A DNA stretch of 64,000 bases from Chryseobacterium gleum (GTDB lineage Bacteria > Bacteroidota > Bacteroidia > Flavobacteriales_D > Sanyastnellaceae), in the NCBI GenBank assembly GCA_945874695.1, contig CAMCHP010000005.1, positions 1 to 64,000 on the forward strand, in the 5' to 3' direction. Positions 5,830 to 51,920 of the stretch are shown here, piece after piece. The notes beneath the pieces are model-generated. The model did no database searches, had not been told where the DNA came from, and saw only the letters and a list, made by a program, of their open reading frames with translations. The translations under genes and the position numbers were made by a program. How positions within the stretch are numbered: the first letter of the stretch is position 1; every line of letters begins with the position of its first letter.

Positions 5830-5941
5830 GCAAAAGTACAACCTTCTGATTGACTCATTCAATCGAACTAAACAACGCATTCGTCGAGCATTTTCAACGA
5901 AAAAAACCTATATTCACGGCCTCAACCGAAATACATCACCT

Positions 5942-6829
5942 ATGAAAACTATTTACACATTGCTTACTGTTTGCGTAATCCTTGCGCTAGGAAGCTTTCA
6001 AAACGCGCAAGCGCAAGGCGCATGTACACAAACAGACCTTTTCTACATTGGAGATAACCTCGAATTTGTGCAGTCTGTGGCCGCTTCATGCGGACAAGAG
6101 TGTTTGTTTGCTGCAGACCCCGAAGCGTGTTTTCAAGCGTGCATGAGCGCACAAGTGGAGCTCACTGAAGGCTGCGTTTCGTGCTTTTCAGCCCAAACAA
6201 GCTGTGCCGTTGACCAATGCTTTTTCCCCTGTGTATTCGGATCAGAAGCCAATTGCGCAGCGTGCATCGAAGCGAATTGTTTGGCTGATTTTGAAGTTTG
6301 CGCAGGCATCGTTGATTTAGACAACGATGGCTCATCAACGCTCTTCGATTGCGACGACAACAATCCGTTGGTGTTCCCAGGTGCACCAGGCAACAACTCC
6401 GGCATCGACAACAACTGCGACGGTGTGATTGATGCAACCGAGTGCATTCCAAGTATTTGGTACGCCGATGCTGACAACGACGGCTTTGGTGATGAGGCCG
6501 TAACCCTTAGCGCTTGCGATCAACCTGCCGGCTATGTGGCTGTTGCTGGAGATTGCGACGACAGCAATGCCACGGTTTACGTGGGCGCCAGTGGTACCGG
6601 TGAGAACATCGACAACGATTGCAACGGGATCATCGAAGGCGACGAAGCCCCCGCAGGTTGTCCGGGTGATTTTAACGATGACAACGCAGTGAATATCGCT
6701 GACCTCTTGGTTTTTCTACCGAATTTCAGCTGTACGCAAGAGTGCTTCGCTGATCTCGACAACAACGACGTGGTGAATTCAGCTGATTTGCTCACATTCT
6801 TGACCGTGTTTGGAATTACGTGTGATTGA
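5942..6829 (+). CDS. Secreted cysteine-rich protein with MopE-type repeats and dockerin-like C-terminus
   Basis: Exported protein of 295 residues. The start at 5942 gives a clean signal peptide (MKTIYTLLTV.. ending in AQAQ). Residues about 25-120 are a cysteine-rich region with about a dozen Cys. Two Asp-rich MopE-like putative metal-binding motifs follow (DLDNDG...DCDDNN...GIDNNCDG and DADNDG...DCDDSN...NIDNDCNG). The last about 55 residues contain two dockerin/EF-hand-like loops, DFNDDNAVNIADLL and DLDNNDVVNSADLL, each followed by an FLxxF-like helix. No T9SS A/B sorting domain is seen; the same ending occurs in the secreted protein at 23031-24986. Function is not known; calcium binding and surface or extracellular location are inferred. 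A longer frame starting at 5828 is rejected since it buries the signal peptide. Confidence 0.85.
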   Translation: MKTIYTLLTVCVILALGSFQNAQAQGACTQTDLFYIGDNLEFVQSVAASCGQECLFAADPEACFQACMSAQVELTEGCVSCFSAQTSCAVDQCFFPCVFGSEANCAACIEANCLADFEVCAGIVDLDNDGSSTLFDCDDNNPLVFPGAPGNNSGIDNNCDGVIDATECIPSIWYADADNDGFGDEAVTLSACDQPAGYVAVAGDCDDSNATVYVGASGTGENIDNDCNGIIEGDEAPAGCPGDFNDDNAVNIADLLVFLPNFSCTQECFADLDNNDVVNSADLLTFLTVFGITCD

Positions 6830-7473
6830 TGGATTTTCTGCCTGAAAAAATCTCGAGCTACGTTGACGCACACAGCGATGCTGAGCCTGACCTCTTATAC
6901 CGCCTGCACCGTGAAACATGGCAAAAAGTGGTTATGCCACGCATGCTCTCGGGTCATTTTCAAGGCCGTTTTTTGGCCTTTTTGAGCCGCATTTTGCAGC
7001 CTGAGCGCATACTTGAAATTGGCTCATACACGGGGTACTCGGCCATTTGCTTGTGTGAAGGTTTAAGGCCTAACGGCCGGATGGATGCTGTCGAAATCAA
7101 CCCAGAGCTCAATAGCATTCAAGACAAGTATTGGACTGAGGCAGGCATCCGTGACAAAATCACCCGCTACAACGGTAAGGCTGCCGAAATACTCCCTACG
7201 TTGGATGGTGGGTATGACCTCATCTTCTTAGATGCTGACAAAGAAAACTATCCGCTCTACTATGAAGCATGCTTGAACTTGCTGCGCACAGGTGGGGTAT
7301 TACTGATCGACAACGTATTGTGGACCGGAAAAGTGGTTGAGCCCGTTACCAAGCACGACCCAGAGACTAAGGCCTTGCAATCCTTGAACGACACAATCGC
7401 CCAGGATGCACGTGTGAGTAAGCTCATGCTCCCCATACGCGACGGCGTATTTGCCATTATGAAGAATGCGTAG
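6829..7473 (+). CDS. O-methyltransferase (caffeoyl-CoA/COMT-like family 3)
   Basis: SAM-dependent O-methyltransferase of 214 residues in the bacterial catechol/caffeoyl-CoA OMT family. Motif I is visible in RILEIGSYTGYSAICL, and the metal-ligand region in YDLIFLDADKENYPLYYE, with the later LIDNVLW typical of the family, so a divalent-metal-dependent enzyme. The ATG at 6829 overlaps the stop of the preceding gene (TGATG), hence translational coupling; a TTG three bases earlier is an alternative start. The Leu-Arg-Pro-Asn-Gly-Arg-Met segment is encoded by one of the dispersed palindromes (7064-7084). Substrate unknown. Confidence 0.9.
   Translation: MDFLPEKISSYVDAHSDAEPDLLYRLHRETWQKVVMPRMLSGHFQGRFLAFLSRILQPERILEIGSYTGYSAICLCEGLRPNGRMDAVEINPELNSIQDKYWTEAGIRDKITRYNGKAAEILPTLDGGYDLIFLDADKENYPLYYEACLNLLRTGGVLLIDNVLWTGKVVEPVTKHDPETKALQSLNDTIAQDARVSKLMLPIRDGVFAIMKNA
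7064..7084 (+). repeat. Dispersed palindrome, copy 2 (inside O-methyltransferase gene)
   Basis: Core GGCC-TAAC-GGCC followed by GGATG, preceded by GTTTAA. It encodes the NGRM part of the methyltransferase between strand 1 and strand 2 of the Rossmann fold, where length variation is tolerated. Same reading phase as the copies in the lolD-like and E1 genes. Confidence 0.55.
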
Positions 7474-43300: not shown

Positions 43301-44652
43301 AAGCCAAAGCCGACGCCATCGGGGAACTGCATAATGTTTCCGTATGAACCAAAAAACAAGGGATCGTTCGAGGCTCCGAATTCTACTGCCGCACAGAAAT
43401 CGTCTTTCGGACTGCCGTAGTTGCGTTCCCAAACCCGAGAACCATCGGCGTTGTAACGCGCCACGAAGATGTCGCGGTAACCCAAGCTGTAGAAAACACC
43501 TTCGCCATAGGGCGCACTGAAATCACTGAAGCGGCACTTGAAGGTTCCGGCGACGTACCACTCGCCGTTGTCGCCTTCGCAAAGCGATTTAGATGAAACT
43601 TCGTTGGCTGAGCCCGCGTTGCTGAGCCATACCGCTTCGCCGTTGAGGTCGAATTTCGCGAGGAAGATGTTGTACTCACCGCTTCCAGGGAACAGTTGTG
43701 TGCCGTTTTCACTCAACACCGCCATTTGACCGATGTGGTCGCCGGTGAGGTAAAGGTGATTGTCGCTGCCGAATTCAAGTTCATTGATCAGGGTTTGGGT
43801 CGTGGCCAAACGGGTGAGCCACGCCTCATTTCCGTCGGTGTCGATCTTCATGAGAAAACCGGCATTAAAGACCGTGTTGGGATAATTCGAATTGCCGAAT
43901 TGAAGGGTATCGGATGATTGTCCGGCGAGGTAAACGTTACCGAGCGGGTCATTGCACAAGCTCAAGCCGCGGTCGTCTCCGCTGGCAGCGCCTTGCTTTG
44001 CCCAAAGGACCTCACCGTTCGGGGCGATTTTAACCACAAAAATATCGTGCGAGGGTGTGTTCGTTTGCGGATTGAGCGCACTGGTTAACAGAAAAGGGCC
44101 GATTTGGGCCACCCCTTTGAACTGACCGGTGCAATAAACGTTTCCACCGGCATCGATGGAGACGCCGTAGCCTGTATCGGCGTCTTGTCCGCCGATGGCG
44201 AGGGTCCATTCCGGAATCCCTTGTGCATTGCAGAGCATAACAAAGGCGTCTTGCGAACCGGCATTGGTCGCGATGGATTGGCCGTTCACCGCTGCATTGC
44301 CTGTGATGTAGCCCGTTACGGCCACCTTGCCGTTGGCATGAGCGGCGACGTCTAGAATGCGATCAGCGCCTGTTCCACCGATGGTGCATACCCAATCGAC
44401 GTCGCCTTGGCCATTGAGTTTGGTGAGAAAACCGTCGCTGAAACCGTTGCTTTGTAGGCTTGTGGCCCCCATTTGGGCGCCTTGACTGAAGTACCCACCG
44501 ACGTAATAGTTGTTGCCGATGGCATCGCTGCAGAGGGCTTCATCTTGCCCGAGCGAACCGTAAGAGTTGATCCATTTCGCTTGTCCGTATGCAGCAAAGC
44601 CCCCTAAAAGGGAGAGCCCAACAAGAAAAAGACGAAAGCCGATTGAATTCAT
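40369..44652 (-). CDS. Giant gliding-associated protein with T9SS type-B sorting domain
   Basis: 1427 residues from the ATG at 44652 (MNSIGFRLFLVG), which gives a signal peptide ending AYGQA; a start 21 bp upstream is less apt. Residues about 25-500 are SBBP-like beta-propeller repeats (GxDxGYGVSIDAGGNVYCTG, DPLGNVYLAGQ, GDNGEWYVAGTF). The middle consists of Ig-like domains rich in Cys and aromatic residues. The C-terminus (ANIFTPNNDGTNDTYDF ... VRIYNRWGQLV ... WNGKSSNGDQVEDGVYFIV) is a CHU_C/gliding-associated type-B sorting domain. Predicted to be secreted by T9SS and displayed at or released from the cell surface. Function unknown; adhesion is a reasonable guess. Confidence 0.9.
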   Translation of the reverse strand: MNSIGFRLFLVGLSLLGGFAAYGQAKWINSYGSLGQDEALCSDAIGNNYYVGGYFSQGAQMGATSLQSNGFSDGFLTKLNGQGDVDWVCTIGGTGADRILDVAAHANGKVAVTGYITGNAAVNGQSIATNAGSQDAFVMLCNAQGIPEWTLAIGGQDADTGYGVSIDAGGNVYCTGQFKGVAQIGPFLLTSALNPQTNTPSHDIFVVKIAPNGEVLWAKQGAASGDDRGLSLCNDPLGNVYLAGQSSDTLQFGNSNYPNTVFNAGFLMKIDTDGNEAWLTRLATTQTLINELEFGSDNHLYLTGDHIGQMAVLSENGTQLFPGSGEYNIFLAKFDLNGEAVWLSNAGSANEVSSKSLCEGDNGEWYVAGTFKCRFSDFSAPYGEGVFYSLGYRDIFVARYNADGSRVWERNYGSPKDDFCAAVEFGASNDPLFFGSYGNIMQFPDGVGFGFGDSASVPGWSYTVDYCDDANYGQVQAIESVGALDVFMARAVLTDVQPFDWFLRNGQSGCTRNFIEGCLGSSACPDTLAGCGVTEVPLVLFTQLMNAGGPEVEVTWTGDVTLLNPSEPYLATSHTSQWVQVAIDRLDGCYAANDSVYTLIHPFPTQPLLTDDVVINTECTSCEDLILCEVQPITLSASGITEPDFGWVIPELPLQNQFTTSLGGTYVFEQTNAFGCSSQTSIHIQFALVPDTVAPYIASFFGGMPLGIDSVGLCPNDGVLFQLLDSLDVNPGVMFHYGDVLWTHYHEGNLVNQSVLPSSEPFAFQDGQDGWHTVHASYTEMFCDEPVQTYPLQTDSVYVIFYPEPELDINLAGPSELCPGESVVLAAFGADAFEWSGPSFEVITPNTIAVFAPGVYTINHSAVNEFGCSAYDISTHEVTAKAAFAGMLPENGIVCPFDSVMLFTEESYMSYQWIGPMGELLGTEQTQWASVPGLYHCQVVDAAFCALETNFLEVKAYSSPFLEAFPGTDLCVSGEVQLTLATNEEAEVLWIDPLSGNGLQQFIDQPGTYTVQSTLCDITTSLDITIVMTEVEAEISVISELPACLGDTVFLIANPGMNLYNWNPGGYAGQQIAVTEAGTYNLTTADAQGCLGFAESVEIAFTVATATVNSAPAAACPGDELVLEALGTGDFAWYLLGDEEPTATGGSFEFTMGDEVVVIGVSSTVDACESEPVFVAVEVHPSAEAIEIEDFDSFCEGDEVVLGSPSGELNWSGPAGSFTGNPWNLGAADPEWTGVYTAAYAENLCQTPAVALTLAVAPLPPAPPAIDTLACLGSEITLFSDYAGLTMWYNPSSQTTLTAPAWTFTMLASDLATTYHFVSDAGCVGESAPIFVESIVCTGEQANIFTPNNDGTNDTYDFKSWSYSIEVVRIYNRWGQLVRELIDEPFVWNGKSSNGDQVEDGVYFIVLSSHVPMDGEHTQTGVVYVKR

Positions 44653-44767
44653 GATCGCTTGGACAAGGTACAAAAGAAATACAAACGTAGTTGTAGATAC
44701 CCTACTTGCGCGATGAAATCAGCGTGTACTGATGACATGATCGTAGACAAAAATACCCCGAAAGCCA

Positions 44768-44830
44768 GCACGTCATTCGAGCTGTTTTGGTGTGCTTAGC
44801 TGTTACTTGGCCAGATGCTAGTAACGAGCT
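44768..44830. repeat. Cassette-junction inverted repeat A (diverged)
   Basis: Lies just beyond the stop of the minus-strand gene at 44833. It contains AGCAC/GTGCT and GTTACT/AGTAAC inverted pairs, and GCTGTTACTTGGCCAG, which resembles GCTGTTATAGCCAGTG of junctions C and D. It also shares GTCATTCG with junction B. Probably the last, degenerate member of the junction series. Confidence 0.4.
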
Positions 44831-44832
44831 TT

Positions 44833-45441
44833 CTAATTGTTCTCTCTAATTCGTCCATTCGAATCAATGCTATATTTTGTAACGCTAGTTGTTACTTTAT
44901 CACGCATATCACCAAAGTCAGAATTGCGAGGCAACAGAGAAAAAGATGTGATTGAATCAACTACCAAAATTGTATGGTTTTTATTAATTGTTAAATACGA
45001 CCTGGTTACGGATACGGTATAGTGCCCAAAAACGCTGCTGGTTTGTTGATAAGGCACTAATGAATCAATCTTATTTCCTTGTTTATCGTAAGTTGTCAAG
45101 AAAGGGCCAATGCCCAATTGCTCAATCGAAAAGTCAAGCAATGTAACAGTATTGCTGTCGCTAAATAAAATCCCTAAAGGCTGGTTTGCCCCCTGGTGTT
45201 TATATCGCTCAAAAGCTACCTTGTCGTAGTGCTTTGAAAGTGGTTCAAATGGTTCAAATGAATTGTGTGAAAACGGCAAAGGAATCTGATTGAGGGTATT
45301 GAGGTATTTCTCAAAATCACTTGCGGAGTTGTCTTGCAGTGCATGTTCTGCAGTTGCAGTTTCAGTGCTGGTTGTGGTTTCTGTCGAACAACTTGTAACC
45401 AAGCATAAAATGAATGCCAAAATAGATATTGTGTGTTTCAT
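44833..45441 (-). CDS. Hypothetical lipoprotein (cassette gene 1)
   Basis: 202 residues. Lipoprotein signal with VTSC (Cys at about 18) followed by a Thr/Ser/Glu-rich linker, then a beta-rich domain with no family I recognise (PLGILFSDSNTVTLLDFSIE; HTILVVDSITSF). AT-rich compared with the giant gene downstream. It is the last of four minus-strand genes separated by long inverted repeats. Likely exported to the cell envelope; function unknown. Confidence 0.7.
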   Translation of the reverse strand: MKHTISILAFILCLVTSCSTETTTSTETATAEHALQDNSASDFEKYLNTLNQIPLPFSHNSFEPFEPLSKHYDKVAFERYKHQGANQPLGILFSDSNTVTLLDFSIEQLGIGPFLTTYDKQGNKIDSLVPYQQTSSVFGHYTVSVTRSYLTINKNHTILVVDSITSFSLLPRNSDFGDMRDKVTTSVTKYSIDSNGRIRENN

Positions 45442-45466
45442 AATGGTCTGTCACTGGTCCGGATTG

Positions 45467-45540
45467 GCACGAACGATTAGCATAAACCTCGTTGCAATTT
45501 CACGAACAATGATCGCTTATAAATTGGTAGTCATTCGTGC
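45467..45540. repeat. Cassette-junction inverted repeat B
   Basis: 74-bp imperfect inverted repeat with arms GCACGAACGA (45467-45476) and TCATTCGTGC (45531-45540), 9 of 10 positions paired. It fills the gap between two array genes and has the same layout as junctions C and D but a different core sequence. Confidence 0.5.
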
Positions 45541-45548
45541 TTTACTTC

Positions 45549-46625
45549 TTAGAATATTTTGTCAAATGTTTCTCCGTTGAATTTATAAACGCCACCTTCT
45601 GCCATTCCAAATAGCAGGTTATTGTTTTTGTCTAGGTAAATGTCCCAAGCCGTTTGAACGTTCAATTTCGGGTCAATCCTATAGTTTGTTAGCGTTTCAC
45701 CATCATATCTCCAAGCTCCAGAATCTCGATCTCCAAACCAAATATTTCCTTGACTATCTTCTGCAATCGCAAAAACAGATTGCAGGCCTGTGTTCTTAGC
45801 AAACTGTTCACTTTGAATGTTTGCTTCAAATTCACTATTCGGAATGAGTTTTCCTTTTTCCTTCGAGAAGTGTGTGATTGCGTCGCCATTTTTAAGGATT
45901 ACGCCAATTCCATTGTTCCCTATCCAAAGTCGGCCTTGAGCGTCCTCCAAAATGCTTCGAACGTGAATTTTTTCAGATTCTTCTGAAAGTCCTAGTGTTT
46001 CATCATTAATCGTTACAAACTGCTTTCCATCATAGCCGAAAACACCTGCATACGTACCAAACCATACCCGCTCATTTTTTCCTTTCGAGATGCCTGTTAC
46101 CGCATATAAATTACCTGTTCGAGTGTCTCTGGGGTTCGGAAAAGCTAAATAGTTCAATTGCTGTCCGTCATATCTATAAACTCCTTGGTTTGTTCCCGCA
46201 TTAAACCACAAGTCTTTGTCGGTTTTCGTCCACTCGGTTTCTGAATTTCGATTTACAAGATGATTTTTAATACTTCGCCCATCGTAACTGCTCACCCCAT
46301 TTGCAGTTTCAAACCAAATCATTCCGTTTTCGTCTTCCTGAATTCCACGAACTTGATTGTCTGCCAATCCTTCATTGGTTGTAAAGTATGTAAATGCATT
46401 TCCATCATATACACTTACCCCTTCATTATGGCTTCCAAACCAATAATTGCCTTTACTGTCTTGGAAGATTGCTCGTATAGCCGAGGAAAACTTTAAAGTG
46501 TCAGCATTTGAAGTGGCAACTAATTCAGGTTGATTTATTTCCTTTTCTGCTGATCTCTTTTCAGCACAAGCAAAGATTAGCGTCAATGGAAGTATGAGGT
46601 AAATCAATGCTGTTTTTTGGTTCAT
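45549..46625 (-). CDS. Two-component-regulator-propeller lipoprotein (cassette gene 2)
   Basis: 358 residues with a lipoprotein-type signal (LIFAC at about 20) and a beta-propeller of Reg_prop repeats: IFQDSKGNYWFGSHNEGVSVYDG, IQEDENGMIWFETANGVSSYDG, ILEDAQGRLWIGNNGIG, IAEDSQGNIWFGDRDSGAWRYDG and IYLDKNNNLLFGMAEGGVYKFNG. Such propellers are the sensor part of hybrid two-component systems; here no kinase follows, so this is a free-standing periplasmic or surface propeller. AT-rich. Second gene of the junction-separated array. Confidence 0.85.
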   Translation of the reverse strand: MNQKTALIYLILPLTLIFACAEKRSAEKEINQPELVATSNADTLKFSSAIRAIFQDSKGNYWFGSHNEGVSVYDGNAFTYFTTNEGLADNQVRGIQEDENGMIWFETANGVSSYDGRSIKNHLVNRNSETEWTKTDKDLWFNAGTNQGVYRYDGQQLNYLAFPNPRDTRTGNLYAVTGISKGKNERVWFGTYAGVFGYDGKQFVTINDETLGLSEESEKIHVRSILEDAQGRLWIGNNGIGVILKNGDAITHFSKEKGKLIPNSEFEANIQSEQFAKNTGLQSVFAIAEDSQGNIWFGDRDSGAWRYDGETLTNYRIDPKLNVQTAWDIYLDKNNNLLFGMAEGGVYKFNGETFDKIF

Positions 46626-46650
46626 TTCGGTTATAATCTATGTGAGGGAA

Positions 46651-46784
46651 AACGGTTTGCAGATTTGCAATGGGCGGGATTTTTACCACTGAACTTTATG
46701 CGGAGCACGAAACTTTTGGCTACCACAAAACTGTTGTCGGAGCACGAAACCCCGCCTATTGCAAATGTGCTGTTATAGCCAGTG
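46651..46784. repeat. Cassette-junction inverted repeat C
   Basis: 134-bp element. Inner arms 46659-46678 and 46751-46770 are complementary at about 18 of 20 positions. It starts with AACGGTTT (shared with junction D) and ends with GCTGTTATAGCCAGTG, 16 bp identical to the right end of junction D. Read along the genes, it runs CTGGCTATAACAGC ... AAACCGTT, then diverges, as expected when each cassette contributes its own sequence after the crossover. Confidence 0.6.
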
Positions 46785-46788
46785 GTTC

Positions 46789-47781
46789 TCATTCGCAGCC
46801 CAATATTGGTTCTTTATCAACCCACTTTCCATTTTCTAGTACACTAACAGAACAGTCTTTTTTCTCTGAATGTGGAAAAGCCTGGACACATACTACTACT
46901 CTAACCAATGTTACCACTCCACCAATATATTCATAGTTGTCCATCTGTGTGGTTAAAGTATCAATTCTTGATGTCTTTAAACCAACAAATGTATTCTTGT
47001 TAAAATCAAAGTAACAATCATCCAAACTGCTTAATAGCGTGTCTAAAACAAAACCTGTAACAGTATCTTTATAAATGAAATAATTCCATTTTGTCGAATC
47101 ATTCATTTGGTGTTCTCTGTAGTCTTTTTGTCCGTCAAAGTTAAAGTCGGCAACTTCCAATCTAAGATTCCCGATTCTTCTTGGGTTTCTAAAATTTGGG
47201 TCGTCTTCTGGAATAACTGGTTCTGCTAAAAGCTGTTGTTTGGCAAACTGAACAGAAATGAAATAATCTACTTCTTGTTTTCGATTATCGACCTGAAATA
47301 CGTCCCAGATGACTGGTGAAATGTCATATACAATTTGCTCAGTTTTAATTGTTTTAAAAGGCAAAGTGTTATAGTTCCATTTATGCAGATTTCCGTCATT
47401 AACCCATAATTTGAAATTTCCTTTTTGAAATGGAATATTCAGAAAGTAAACATTGTAAGCATTTAAAATTTCAATGTTCATCGTATCCTTTTTATTCTTC
47501 ACTATCTGAATATGGTGGTCATCTGTCATCAGTGTTTTATGCAAGTATTCTGCCATTGGATAATACTCAAAACCTGTCTGGTTATCACTAATATCTTTTA
47601 GTTCATAAGTTTTGTAAGTAAGACTTGTTTTCCATCCTTGTTCACCTTTTTTAAAGCAATTTTCAAAATGTAAAATATCACCATTGTCTGTTATTTCCAA
47701 GAAGATTTTTGAATGTCCCGTTGGTTGTGCTAAACAATGAACCGATAAACAGATTAGTATTAATTGAAGTATCCTTTGCAT
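46789..47781 (-). CDS. Hypothetical exported protein (cassette gene 3)
   Basis: 330 residues with a signal peptide ending HCLAQP. Central part contains LEVADFNFDGQKDYREHQM, an Asp-rich FG-GAP/EF-hand-like motif as in XAC2610-type periplasmic proteins. Otherwise beta-rich with no family assignment. Clearly AT-rich. It lies between junctions C and D, giving a repeat-to-repeat unit of 1173 bp. Confidence 0.7.
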   Translation of the reverse strand: MQRILQLILICLSVHCLAQPTGHSKIFLEITDNGDILHFENCFKKGEQGWKTSLTYKTYELKDISDNQTGFEYYPMAEYLHKTLMTDDHHIQIVKNKKDTMNIEILNAYNVYFLNIPFQKGNFKLWVNDGNLHKWNYNTLPFKTIKTEQIVYDISPVIWDVFQVDNRKQEVDYFISVQFAKQQLLAEPVIPEDDPNFRNPRRIGNLRLEVADFNFDGQKDYREHQMNDSTKWNYFIYKDTVTGFVLDTLLSSLDDCYFDFNKNTFVGLKTSRIDTLTTQMDNYEYIGGVVTLVRVVVCVQAFPHSEKKDCSVSVLENGKWVDKEPILGCE

Positions 47782-47815
47782 AATTGATTTCTTTTATGGA
47801 TTGGTCGTCTTACTA

Positions 47816-47957
47816 TTGGCTATAACGGTTTCGGGCTTAGCGTTCGGGCTGGTTTTGGAGCACAAAACTGTCAAGCAGCACTGAACTTGCATAGAAGCAC
47901 TAAGCTTCATTTAAACACTGAATCGGCAATTTCTTGTAGTTGCTGTTATAGCCAGTG
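47816..47957. repeat. Cassette-junction inverted repeat D
   Basis: 142-bp element with perfect 10-bp outer arms TGGCTATAAC (47817-47826) and GTTATAGCCA (47945-47954) and weaker inner pairing (GCTTAGCG.. / ..CTAAGC). The outer arms have the AAC/GTT ends of integron attC sites though the core bases differ. Its right arm overlaps the end of the next gene and supplies its stop codon (CTA TAA). Confidence 0.65.
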
Positions 47958-48365
47958 TTTCTTTTCATGTTTCATTTTTAGTAAAGTCAGTCCAGCAAGC
48001 CCAAGTGTCACTCCTGCCATTATAATACCTCTTGTCGTCAGCCCTTTTGAAATTATCAAAATGGGTGGATAAGTCGCTACTATGAATGTGGTCAAGGCTA
48101 ATTGGTTAAATAGTTTTTTGTTCTTTTTAATTCTTGAATATATAGTCAAGGTCAATAATGCTGCGGTAATTATTGTCCAGAAAGTTAACAGAATAAAACC
48201 ATTATTTACGTCTCTTTTGAAGTCAGCTCCTTCAGGATAGTCAGGGTGTTGCAAATAATATTCTTGTGAACCAAAACCAATTAGGTTTGTAATCTTTGCA
48301 AGTAAAGCGAAAGAAAGCCAAACGATTACTATGGTCGCTAGTATTTTGTCTACTTTAAGCATCAT
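47946..48365 (-). CDS. Small membrane protein (cassette gene 4)
   Basis: 139 residues from the ATG at 48365 (MMLKVDKI); a longer frame extends into the group II intron remnant and is rejected. Four hydrophobic segments (about 8-25, 52-72, 85-103, 108-124) joined by short loops: a polytopic inner-membrane protein of unknown function. The last residues HWL and the TAA stop are encoded by the TGGCTATAAC arm of junction D, so recombination at the junction would alter the C-terminus. AT-rich. Confidence 0.7.
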   Translation of the reverse strand: MMLKVDKILATIVIVWLSFALLAKITNLIGFGSQEYYLQHPDYPEGADFKRDVNNGFILLTFWTIITAALLTLTIYSRIKKNKKLFNQLALTTFIVATYPPILIISKGLTTRGIIMAGVTLGLAGLTLLKMKHEKKHWL

Positions 48366-48381
48366 ATTAACATTGGCTATA

Positions 48382-48548
48382 ATCGGGTCATGCAGGCGAA
48401 TCTCACCCCTTCCTTCCCACAACTTGTAACGACTGTTCGGGAGAACCGTATCCCAATCATCGGGAGAAGCTGTGAAAACTTGCTTCCTTCGGTCGTGAGG
48501 CCGCTTCGCTCAATTCCCTTCATACGGCTCTTCAAGTTCTTTGTACGT
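48382..48548 (-). mobile_element. Remnant of the 3' end of a group II intron
   Basis: On the minus strand, 48548-48510 encodes TYKELEEPYEGN and a stop, the sequence usually found where intron maturase frames run into domain V, and contains GAGCCGTATG (48521-48530), the 5' strand of domain V. The matching 3' strand ATACGGTTCT is at 48442-48451, about 70 bp away instead of about 14, so domain V is expanded or scrambled. A domain-VI-like stem (GGGGT.../...ACCC) ends CCCGA at 48383, where TTATAGCC of the cassette junction resumes. No reverse transcriptase gene remains. The rest of the gap (48549-48700) shows no gene. Confidence 0.55.
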
Positions 48549-48700
48549 GCTCGATCGCGCTATTTCAATGGCTATTTGCAATATTATTGCCCCCCCTTGT
48601 GAACACTCTATGAAGAAAATCAATTCATGAGCGTTATTTTTAGCTTTCTTGGAACGATATTGATTATACGCTATGCCTAAGGTGTTTTTTCAAGGTAGAG

Positions 48701-50113
48701 TCAGAAAAAAACTTTACTCTGCCGCAGAGATTGCATGCACGCTTTGAGATTAAAAGCTTGCGCAGATCCCAATAAATTATCAACCAGTTTCTGGCGTTCT
48801 GCTTCACTCAACACATGCGACATGCACGACAAAAATTTATCGGCAATCACGTTTTCGTTTACGGCAGAATTCCAATGACCTAGCCAGGTATTGCTTGTGG
48901 CATTGCGCCCATCCGACAACATGATTCGCACTTCCATTCTGGTAAAATCAGCGGGAATTCGGTTATCAAAACTAAGTCGGGTTTTAGCCAGCATGCGTTG
49001 AATATCGCTACGCTGAAGCTGTGATTCGGAAAAACTCTGCGCATTAACTTCTCCATCGAGCATTGCCTGAACAACATTAAACTGAAAACTAAAGCGGCAT
49101 TCGTCGGTACTTTGCGGATTAGGGCGATTGCAATACGGGAAAACCGGTGTTTCGATCACGACATCACCATCAAATTTCAGGTCGCGCTGATGCAATTGCA
49201 ATGCTGCATCGATTGCGACCTGCATGGCGGTATGCGCAGGCCAGCGTTTAAATGCAAATCCGGGACGCATAAAACAGCGCATCGATTCCATACCCTCAAT
49301 CAGATAATTTGCATCGAATGCATCACCGCCAAAGACTTCGCCCCAGCCGCCTGGCTCGGCAAATGTATCGCGTGAGGCCGTGAATCCGTTCTTAACAAGC
49401 AGTGCACATTCAAGGCCTGCCCGGGCAGCATTTCCACTGTGCGTAGCTTTTGTTGCGGTGCCAATATTTGCAGCAATTCCACCGGCCCTACTGGCGGCCA
49501 TTCCCAAGGCCATACAGGCTTCATCTTCACTTAAACCAAGCAAGATTGCCGATACCAGTGCACTTCCCATAACACCCACGGTTCCGGGCGGATGGAATCC
49601 CTGTTTTTGAAACGGGAAAAATTTCTGTTCCAGCTTTGCCGAATCATCAGCAACACGGGACGCTTCACGCAACTCGGCCTGCAATGCAATGCCAGCTGCA
49701 AATGCGCGCAGAAAAACTTCGCCGCAGCCTGTATGCAAATCAGAATCCCTCGAAGCAAGTGCAAAAATAGCTCCTAGAACCGGCGATACAGCATGCGTCG
49801 GCGGATCAAACATAGGTTCAAAATCCAAAACATGCGTGGATGTTCCATACACAAATGCCGCATCGGTTACAGGTAGTTCTAATCCCAATCCAGGAAAGGT
49901 AGCACCTGCGTGCGTATGCTGCATCCGGAAGTGCTGCATGAGTTTTTGAATCGTTGGATGCTCCATACCCATAAATAGAACCCCAATACCATCGCAAAGT
50001 AGGAATTGAATCTGCTGACGGGTCATTGCCGGCAATTCAGCATAGTTGAAACGATACGCGGCATCAACAAGGGCACGAGTCGGATTTACGGAAACCGAAT
50101 TATTCATTTTCAT
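48701..50113 (-). CDS. MmgE/PrpD-family protein
   Basis: 470 residues of the 2-methylcitrate dehydratase/cis-aconitate decarboxylase superfamily. Typical stretches are the N-terminal DAAYRFNYAELPAMT, the GTSTHVLDFEPMFDPPTHAVSPVLGA active-site region (Asp and His), ATKATHSGNAARAG, and the RCFMRPGFAFKRWPAHTAMQ segment. Substrate is uncertain: family members dehydrate 2-methylcitrate, decarboxylate cis-aconitate or epimerise iminodisuccinate. No other methylcitrate-cycle gene is adjacent. Start overlaps the stop of the YrdC-like gene by 4 bp, so both form an operon next to mobile-element remains. Confidence 0.85.
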   Translation of the reverse strand: MKMNNSVSVNPTRALVDAAYRFNYAELPAMTRQQIQFLLCDGIGVLFMGMEHPTIQKLMQHFRMQHTHAGATFPGLGLELPVTDAAFVYGTSTHVLDFEPMFDPPTHAVSPVLGAIFALASRDSDLHTGCGEVFLRAFAAGIALQAELREASRVADDSAKLEQKFFPFQKQGFHPPGTVGVMGSALVSAILLGLSEDEACMALGMAASRAGGIAANIGTATKATHSGNAARAGLECALLVKNGFTASRDTFAEPGGWGEVFGGDAFDANYLIEGMESMRCFMRPGFAFKRWPAHTAMQVAIDAALQLHQRDLKFDGDVVIETPVFPYCNRPNPQSTDECRFSFQFNVVQAMLDGEVNAQSFSESQLQRSDIQRMLAKTRLSFDNRIPADFTRMEVRIMLSDGRNATSNTWLGHWNSAVNENVIADKFLSCMSHVLSEAERQKLVDNLLGSAQAFNLKACMQSLRQSKVFF

Positions 50114-50984: not shown

Positions 50985-51920
50985 ATGAATATGACAGCGA
51001 AAGACTTCTTTCAACAGTTCCCTGATGAAGCAGCGTGCGTCCGCCACATGAAAACAGAGCGCGAGAAGAACGGCCTCGTTTGCCGAAAATGTACTTCGAA
51101 GCAATTGAGTTGGGTCAGTACGATTGACCGTTGGGAATGCATGGATTGCCGTGCAAAAACAACCATCAGAAGCGGCACTATCATGATGCACAGTAAGCTG
51201 CCGCTTCACACTTGGTACTGCTGCATGTTCTTGATGATGAGCACCACCAAGGCCGTTTCGGCAAAAGACATGCAGCAGCGATTGGGAATGAAGCGGTATG
51301 AGACGGTTTGGTACATGATGCAAAAGATTCGATTGGCTATGGGCAAGGCGAATGAGTCTGTCAAACTTGATGGAACAGTAGAGTTCGACGATGGCTTTTT
51401 TCGCGCCGACAAGAAAGAGAAGGATCCTCAGCAGCACCTTTTCAATCGCGGCAGAGGAAGCGAGCGAACCCCGCCCGTTCTGGTTGCCGTTCAACGCGGA
51501 ACGCGCTCTTAGCGCAAAACGCGAAACGACATCGAACAGAACACTCGAGCGGGACGTCTGCGCATGGAGCACTTGCCCGATTTTAGCGGCAAGACCTACG
51601 GCGCGCCTGACAAACGGCTGCTCACCAAGAAAACCTCCGCTATCAGTGATGCCAACCCAAGCTACAACGCTATTAAACCCCATGTTGAGCGTCATCAACC
51701 TAGTAAAACTGAGCCCAAAAAGGCAGCCAAAGCTCTGCCCTAGGTGCATATTGTCATCAGCAATGCCAAACGTTTGTTTCTCGGAACATACCATTCGATA
51801 TCAAATTGTTGGTTGCAATGCTACCTGAACGAGTTCTGCTTCAAATTCAACCGGCGGTTTGAACGCCATATATCAGTTAACCAGTTGATTACAGTCATAG
51901 CAACGAACCAACTACACTAA
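50985..51920 (+). pseudogene. IS1595-family (ISXO2-like) transposase, inactivated by two stop codons
   Basis: A single reading frame of 312 codons interrupted by two in-frame TAG codons (51510 and 51741) but no frameshift. The N-terminal zinc-ribbon CRKC..C..C and WECMDCRAKTTIRSGTIM are typical of IS1595 transposases; the middle has RRLGMKRY-like and FDDGFF segments; after the first stop come MEHLPDFSGKTYG and NPSYNAIKPHVERH; after the second YLNEFCFKFNRRFE, the conserved family C-terminus. TAG is used as a normal stop by other genes here (e.g. the O-methyltransferase), so the element is dead. Terminal inverted repeats were not recognised. Confidence 0.8.

Follow-up and report, generated by a model that had tools for sequence, protein, structure and literature searches.

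Two long imperfect inverted repeats, sites C and D, very probably represent attC-type recombination sites of a Bacteroidota integron system and together form a two-cassette, CALIN-like cluster without an integrase in the window (the whole 64,000-nucleotide stretch of DNA that was analysed). Sites of the same family were detected across Bacteroidota, where they lie in tandem beside tyrosine recombinase genes, and this gene-shuffling system, which appears to work like an integron and to be widespread in the phylum, is apparently undescribed. In a literature search with preprints and most subscription papers outside its range, we found no description of this system, and the single complete integron that IntegronFinder 2.0 names for Bacteroidetes is that of Salinibacter (PMC9024848). 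Integron surveys need the IntI additional domain or the classical attC model, and almost no Bacteroidota integrons have been reported. If functional, the system would constitute a major unseen gene-capture route in a dominant phylum, one that extends to a plasmid and to putative viral contigs.

Sites and cassettes in the window genome

Four minus-strand ORFs lie between 44833 and 48365 of the window. The features of this region are as follows.

44833..45441, minus strand: gene 1, 202 aa, without a family; at most a possible cassette; gap A gave no site match
45549..46625, minus strand: gene 2, 358 aa, Reg_prop propeller repeats (PF07494); follows site C, own 3' end without a recognisable site
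46642..46784, minus strand: site C, attC-like recombination site; 114.9 bits with covariance model R1; 24-bp arms
46653..47825, minus strand: cassette 3; starts with TTATAGCCAATAG..., then gene 3; 3' limit is the G of the site C G^TT
46789..47781, minus strand: gene 3, 330 aa, without a Pfam or PADLOC family
47815..47957, minus strand: site D, attC-like recombination site; 105.3 bits with R1; inverted repeat
47826..48382, minus strand: cassette 4; starts with TTATAGCCAATG, then gene 4; 3' limit is the G of the site D G^TT
47946..48365, minus strand: gene 4, 139 aa, without a family

Gap C separates genes 3 and 2, gap D separates genes 4 and 3, and the two sites are spaced 1173 bp. Both carry ACTGGCTATAACAGCA (gene strand) on one side and AAACCGTT on the opposite side. 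The identical 16-bp end seen in the earlier note on this DNA was recovered at 46769-46784 and 47942-47957 of the plus strand, and its perfectly pairing outer arms of site D, TGGCTATAAC/GTTATAGCCA, were confirmed. The R (outer) stem of site D is perfect; its L (inner) stem is broken. Site C has an intact inner stem, and its 24-bp arms show 88% complementarity. The 3' core of site C, GTTTTCCC, is unlike its R'' box, as expected if the next cassette supplies the core. The start of cassette 3 is complementary to R'' of site C at 5/5 positions, and that of cassette 4, which is preceded by GA, not G, is complementary to R'' of site D on direct reading. The stop codon of gene 4 falls within R'' of site D. 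The AT-richness noted earlier was also borne out, with 35% GC at 46640-48380 versus 49% in the remaining window.

The earlier note had placed attC-like repeats in all four gaps, A to D, and this stands for two of them. Short inverted repeats are present in gaps A and B, but neither gap gave a match at E<=10 when 44000-49500 was searched with the covariance model and no filters, indicating that the region holds two sites and two complete cassettes (gene 4 with D, gene 3 with C) rather than four. Genes 1 and 2 could be former cassettes whose sites were lost, or ordinary neighbours. Since R1 was built from C, D and nine Bacteroidota sites of other species, both window sites belong to its training set, and the independent evidence is provided by sites elsewhere.

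A covariance-model search of the window genome, as the earlier note had proposed, gave with R1 three further sites and thus a total of five, two of them in the window.

C78:9481-9622 and C78:10370-10507: extra sites, one cassette apart (R1 search)
C22:9515-9649: extra lone site (R1 search)

Copies of the junctions therefore do occur beside unrelated genes of the same genome. The region C78:8640-10507 is a two-cassette cluster, one cassette of which encodes a DUF2071 protein. It is preceded by GAGAGTTAGCTGCC, a sequence similar to the attI-like motif described below. A further copy of the core, on contig C30, looked like a chance match inside coding sequence and was discarded. Vertical conservation of the gene order, which the earlier note had held to be at odds with cassettes, was not seen: none of the 394 other Bacteroidota genomes sampled yielded a homolog of cassette gene 3 or 4, so the order is not vertically conserved there.

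The earlier note had seen no tyrosine recombinase near the repeats, and at the thresholds used a matching integrase was not found anywhere in the genome; the cassette-integrase profile gave no match at E<=1e-60. The only tyrosine recombinases found in the genome were of XerC type, of XerD type, a 466-aa enzyme of Bacteroidota type and one truncated enzyme. Because sites are present and a matching integrase was not found, the cluster is best described as CALIN-like, as had been suggested, and as a remnant with two complete cassettes. The halves of site D resemble halves of different site subtypes, and D may be a recombinant of two sites, in which the pairing of the inner stem was lost. With its L stem broken, site D may be inactive. 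Given the broken stem and a draft assembly (97% complete) in which no integrase was found, the window cluster could be either a relic or reliant on an integrase supplied from outside. An apparently fragmentary ORF with an IS1595-type transposase zinc ribbon (PF12760) lies near the array at 50985-51512 on the plus strand.

Related sites, arrays and recombinases in Bacteroidota

The core pattern of site D, GGCTATAACAGC...CGTTATAGCC, was found in ten stretches among approximately 85,000 named species genomes. Nine were from Bacteroidota (Limnovirga soli, a Daejeonella MAG, Chitinophagales and others), most of them close to 135 bp in length, and could be aligned with C and D over their entire length; the tenth, a 92 bp stretch from a Chloroflexi MAG, was unrelated. 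With R1, matches were obtained in at least 171 of 395 sampled Bacteroidota genomes (at least 43%), a lower bound since eight candidates per genome were scored, and in 31 of 114 genomes of the window organism's own family. Searched with the same tool, 151 genomes from a control phylum gave no site (0/151). No Rfam family matched the sites. A perfect-palindrome pattern was rejected as a site detector, since variation of the core left it almost without matches in 120 relatives.

Comparison of these sequences establishes a family of sites of about 140 bp and near-constant length, with a conserved R stem and an asymmetric central spacer (1-nt/5-nt). Covariation in the inner (L) stem was 0.346 versus 0.117 after shuffling, with 0 of 500 shuffles as high; compensatory changes were present in 11 of 23 inner-stem pairs, and the signal collapsed once partners were slid by one base. 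The extrahelical bases are not uniform across sites. The earlier note had remarked that the cores do not fit GTTRRRY, which is correct insofar as the strict form occurs in 10/99 cores; GTTA or GTTG was present in 94/99, and the core is better given as G^TTA followed by variable bases.

Arrays of these sites are linked to a tyrosine recombinase gene. At locus L059, 14 co-directional sites spread over 16 kb come after the recombinase gene (339-1466), with one main ORF per interval, and the longest ORF was co-directional in 74 of 81 cassettes. Two sets of loci were compared. The type A set comprised 20 loci that were the top recombinase matches in the phylum, picked irrespective of sites; at least one site was present at 17/20, and 53 of 54 sites were downstream on the same strand. 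The type B set comprised 20 shorter recombinases, five of which had been picked with sites on the contig already known; 12/20 loci had sites, and all 29 sites were upstream on the opposite strand, a divergent arrangement that is the layout of classical integrons. Type A recombinases (about 344-382 aa) have an extra N-terminal domain of about 75 aa, and type B recombinases are mostly about 246-308 aa. Across 395 genomes, sites and recombinase co-occurred with an odds ratio of 13 (p=3e-25). At the strict threshold, 75 of the 171 site-bearing genomes had no integrase match, which could be explained by draft assemblies and CALINs. A type A set is present on the Chryseobacterium plasmid NZ_CP041688.1, and on three putative viral contigs from IMG/VR (L211, L216 and L225) this integrase is accompanied by three to six matched sites, placed as its type predicts, in two type B sets and one type A layout. 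These results agree with the earlier suggestion of a different cassette system typical of Bacteroidota, and such a system has its own integrase. At the head of a long array at L098 (about 5830-6870; G501:C2:150830-151869), a stop codon interrupts the integrase, showing that arrays outlast the loss of their integrase.

The earlier note had asked for an IntI-like integrase with the core at attI, and in other genomes the motif TATAAACRAG^TTR was conserved about 110-150 bp downstream of most of the type A genes inspected. The motif is preceded by an inverted repeat, and past it the sequences diverge; on this pattern we regard it as an attI-like site.

In classical integrons, the core after G^TT is complementary to the inverse core at the 3' end of the same cassette, and each junction in an array pairs the ends of different cassettes. 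The same rule was detected here. Perfect complementarity between the five variable bases that follow GTTN and the next site's R'' box was seen in 57 of 72 intervals (mean over all intervals 4.39/5), whereas same-site complementarity averaged 2.05/5, and 0 of 2000 permutations reached the observed core/inverse-core sum. At held-out type A loci, 20/32 intervals were perfect (0/2000 permutations as high); at held-out type B and viral loci the rule was weak (5/23 perfect, 10/2000 permutations as high). In addition, a cassette of about 790 bp occurs twice in one array, approximately 10 kb apart, with 792 of 794 positions identical, and the homology stops at GTTA cores on both sides. Read from the sequences, the rule and the duplicated cassette place the exchange point at G^TT, with each cassette carrying its own matching core and inverse core, and indicate that a cassette has moved as a unit.

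Inserted elements were found at the R'' end of sites in two arrays.

L100 3673-4920, 6293-7541 and 18801-20000: IS110-type element, three copies, 99.8% identical, with a 324-aa transposase-like ORF
L106 24272-24443 and 29333-29504, minus strand: group II introns (RF02001), one of them carrying ltrA

IS110-type elements lie directly after R'' of sites at L100 and L106, and at least one of the three L100 copies is inserted directly after the R'' box, resembling the IS1111-attC elements of classical integrons, in which elements of the IS1111 group are directed to one end of the attC site (PMC11187229). The introns of L106, the Chryseobacterium plasmid, adjoin the R'' ends of two sites and are encoded against the cassette direction. 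This placement resembles that of the group IIC-attC introns of classical integrons, which insert into the bottom strand at R'' and are oriented against the cassettes (PMC7923331). As for cassette contents, a Por_Secre_tail domain (type IX secretion C-terminal sorting domain) was detected in 5 of 10 cassette proteins tested from L059 6256-16257, and the cassette protein of L059 4217-5095 is an Mrr-type restriction enzyme, suggesting that the cassettes may shuffle secreted proteins and defence genes.

The recombinase, the I2 domain and rival explanations

The additional (I2) domain of IntI, an insert of about 42 aa near patch III, was absent in 47/47 aligned array-type integrases. The spacing from KDR to HxLRH was 58-61 residues where measured, versus 99-101 in IntI1 and three phage IntI, and the catalytic residues R207, K232, H297, R300, H323 and Y332 were invariant. 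For the Daejeonella enzyme, the structure predicted by AlphaFold (pLDDT 86) gave 2a3v, an integron integrase, as the best PDB fold and XerA as the second, and a helix is missing from it where I2 would lie. The integron-integrase model TIGR02249 matched the recombinases in two pieces and never above its cut-off. The best model was NF040815 (XerA-like, 'tyrosine recombinase/integron integrase'), whose cut-off was passed by 2/3 array integrases tested. The array integrases scored under the XerC/XerD orthology cut-offs (TIGR02224 and TIGR02225) and were placed outside the Xer rows in the tree. Some relatives are phage enzymes not known to belong to integrons, such as a Cellulophaga phage integrase. 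Nesting of IntI in an I2-less clade was considered and not adopted: one tree agrees (97/97), whereas a tree of array-proven integrases only groups the I2-less integrases (88/97). In the latter, a grouping of IntI with type B was not rejected (p-AU 0.23).

We propose that a complete system has three parts: a tyrosine recombinase gene related to IntI, an attI-like site, and a row of cassettes that hold one gene apiece and terminate in a site of about 140 bp capable of hairpin folding. The recombinase would excise cassettes as circles and insert them at the attI-like site or at another attC. We infer that it catalyses this exchange and that its substrate is probably one folded site strand, as in classical integrons, with no I2 needed. 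I2 binds the extrahelical bases of folded attC, is seen as the defining innovation and is known from no other protein, and its deletion abolishes IntI1 function (PMC7790495). In classical attC, the extrahelical bases direct strand choice. Since they lack uniformity in the Bacteroidota sites, strand choice could follow another mechanism, or the exchange could be double-stranded.

The latter corresponds to an unlikely, if serious, alternative, namely that these integron-like sites are recombined as double-stranded dif-like palindromes by an Xer/XerA-type enzyme, the hairpin being incidental. The integrases without I2, their best match to the XerA-type model NF040815 and the non-uniform extrahelical bases fit this explanation, and the core/inverse-core rule makes the R stems perfectly palindromic in the circular form. 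However, the L stem covaries although it is far from the exchange point and is not needed by double-strand exchange, array junctions are usually non-palindromic (2.05/5), and group II introns and an IS110-type element occupy the R'' end, as in folded attC. It is very improbable that the arrays are degenerate classical integrons with classical attC sites from Proteobacteria. Their architecture is the same, and among plasmid matches of the integrase outside Bacteroidota, IntI1 (35% identity) is represented best, but no classical IntI scored above the TIGR02249 cut-off in ten genomes tested or stood beside arrays in the loci examined, strict GTTRRRY cores are rare (10/99), and the control phylum was devoid of sites (0/151). 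Scarcely credible is a mobile hairpin family (MITE or REP-like), or terminators lying by chance 3' of genes: the hairpins do follow stop codons and the window holds two copies, but the fixed orientation and position relative to one recombinase family, the core/inverse-core rule across successive sites and the duplicated gene bounded by cores contradict it.

On balance, we lean towards a large parallel or ancestral integron branch in Bacteroidota, whose integrases would recombine folded attC-like sites without I2. In that case cassettes would recombine without any need for I2, and the origin of classical IntI may lie inside this branch or next to it. Direct proof that I2 gave rise to single-strand recombination is not available (PMC7790495), and a natural I2-less cassette system makes this open question testable.

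Comparison with known systems

CALIN, an IntegronFinder term, stands for a cluster of attC sites lacking an integrase and calls for two or more attC sites, spaced under 4 kb, with no integrase nearby. If accepted as attC, C and D qualify, lying 1173 bp apart in a genome in which an integrase was not found; unlike those of known CALINs, they belong to a non-classical site family.

Xer proteins act on dif sites. With XerA and XerCD, the Bacteroidota integrases share a catalytic fold without I2, and 2/3 array integrases tested passed the NF040815 cut-off. In contrast to Xer proteins, they adjoin cassette arrays, have an IntI-like SPLD/SPFD tail and fall outside the Xer rows of the tree.

Folded classical attC sites of 57-142 nt consist of an R stem, an L stem, an unpaired central spacer, extrahelical bases and a variable terminal structure (PMC2727003). 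The Bacteroidota sites are long and of near-constant length with a 1-nt/5-nt central spacer, and their cores are G^TTA plus variable bases, not RYYYAAC / GTTRRRY. The integrases also differ from IntI in lacking I2 (47/47) and, in type A, in the extra N-terminal domain of about 75 aa and in being co-directional with the cassettes. What is shared with integrons is a tyrosine recombinase gene beside an attI-like site, with intact catalytic residues in the array-adjacent enzyme (in other genomes, not the window genome), tandem single-gene cassettes with imperfect hairpin sites at their 3' ends, a G^TT exchange point with the core/inverse-core rule, a plasmid-borne example (NZ_CP041688.1) and CALIN-like clusters.
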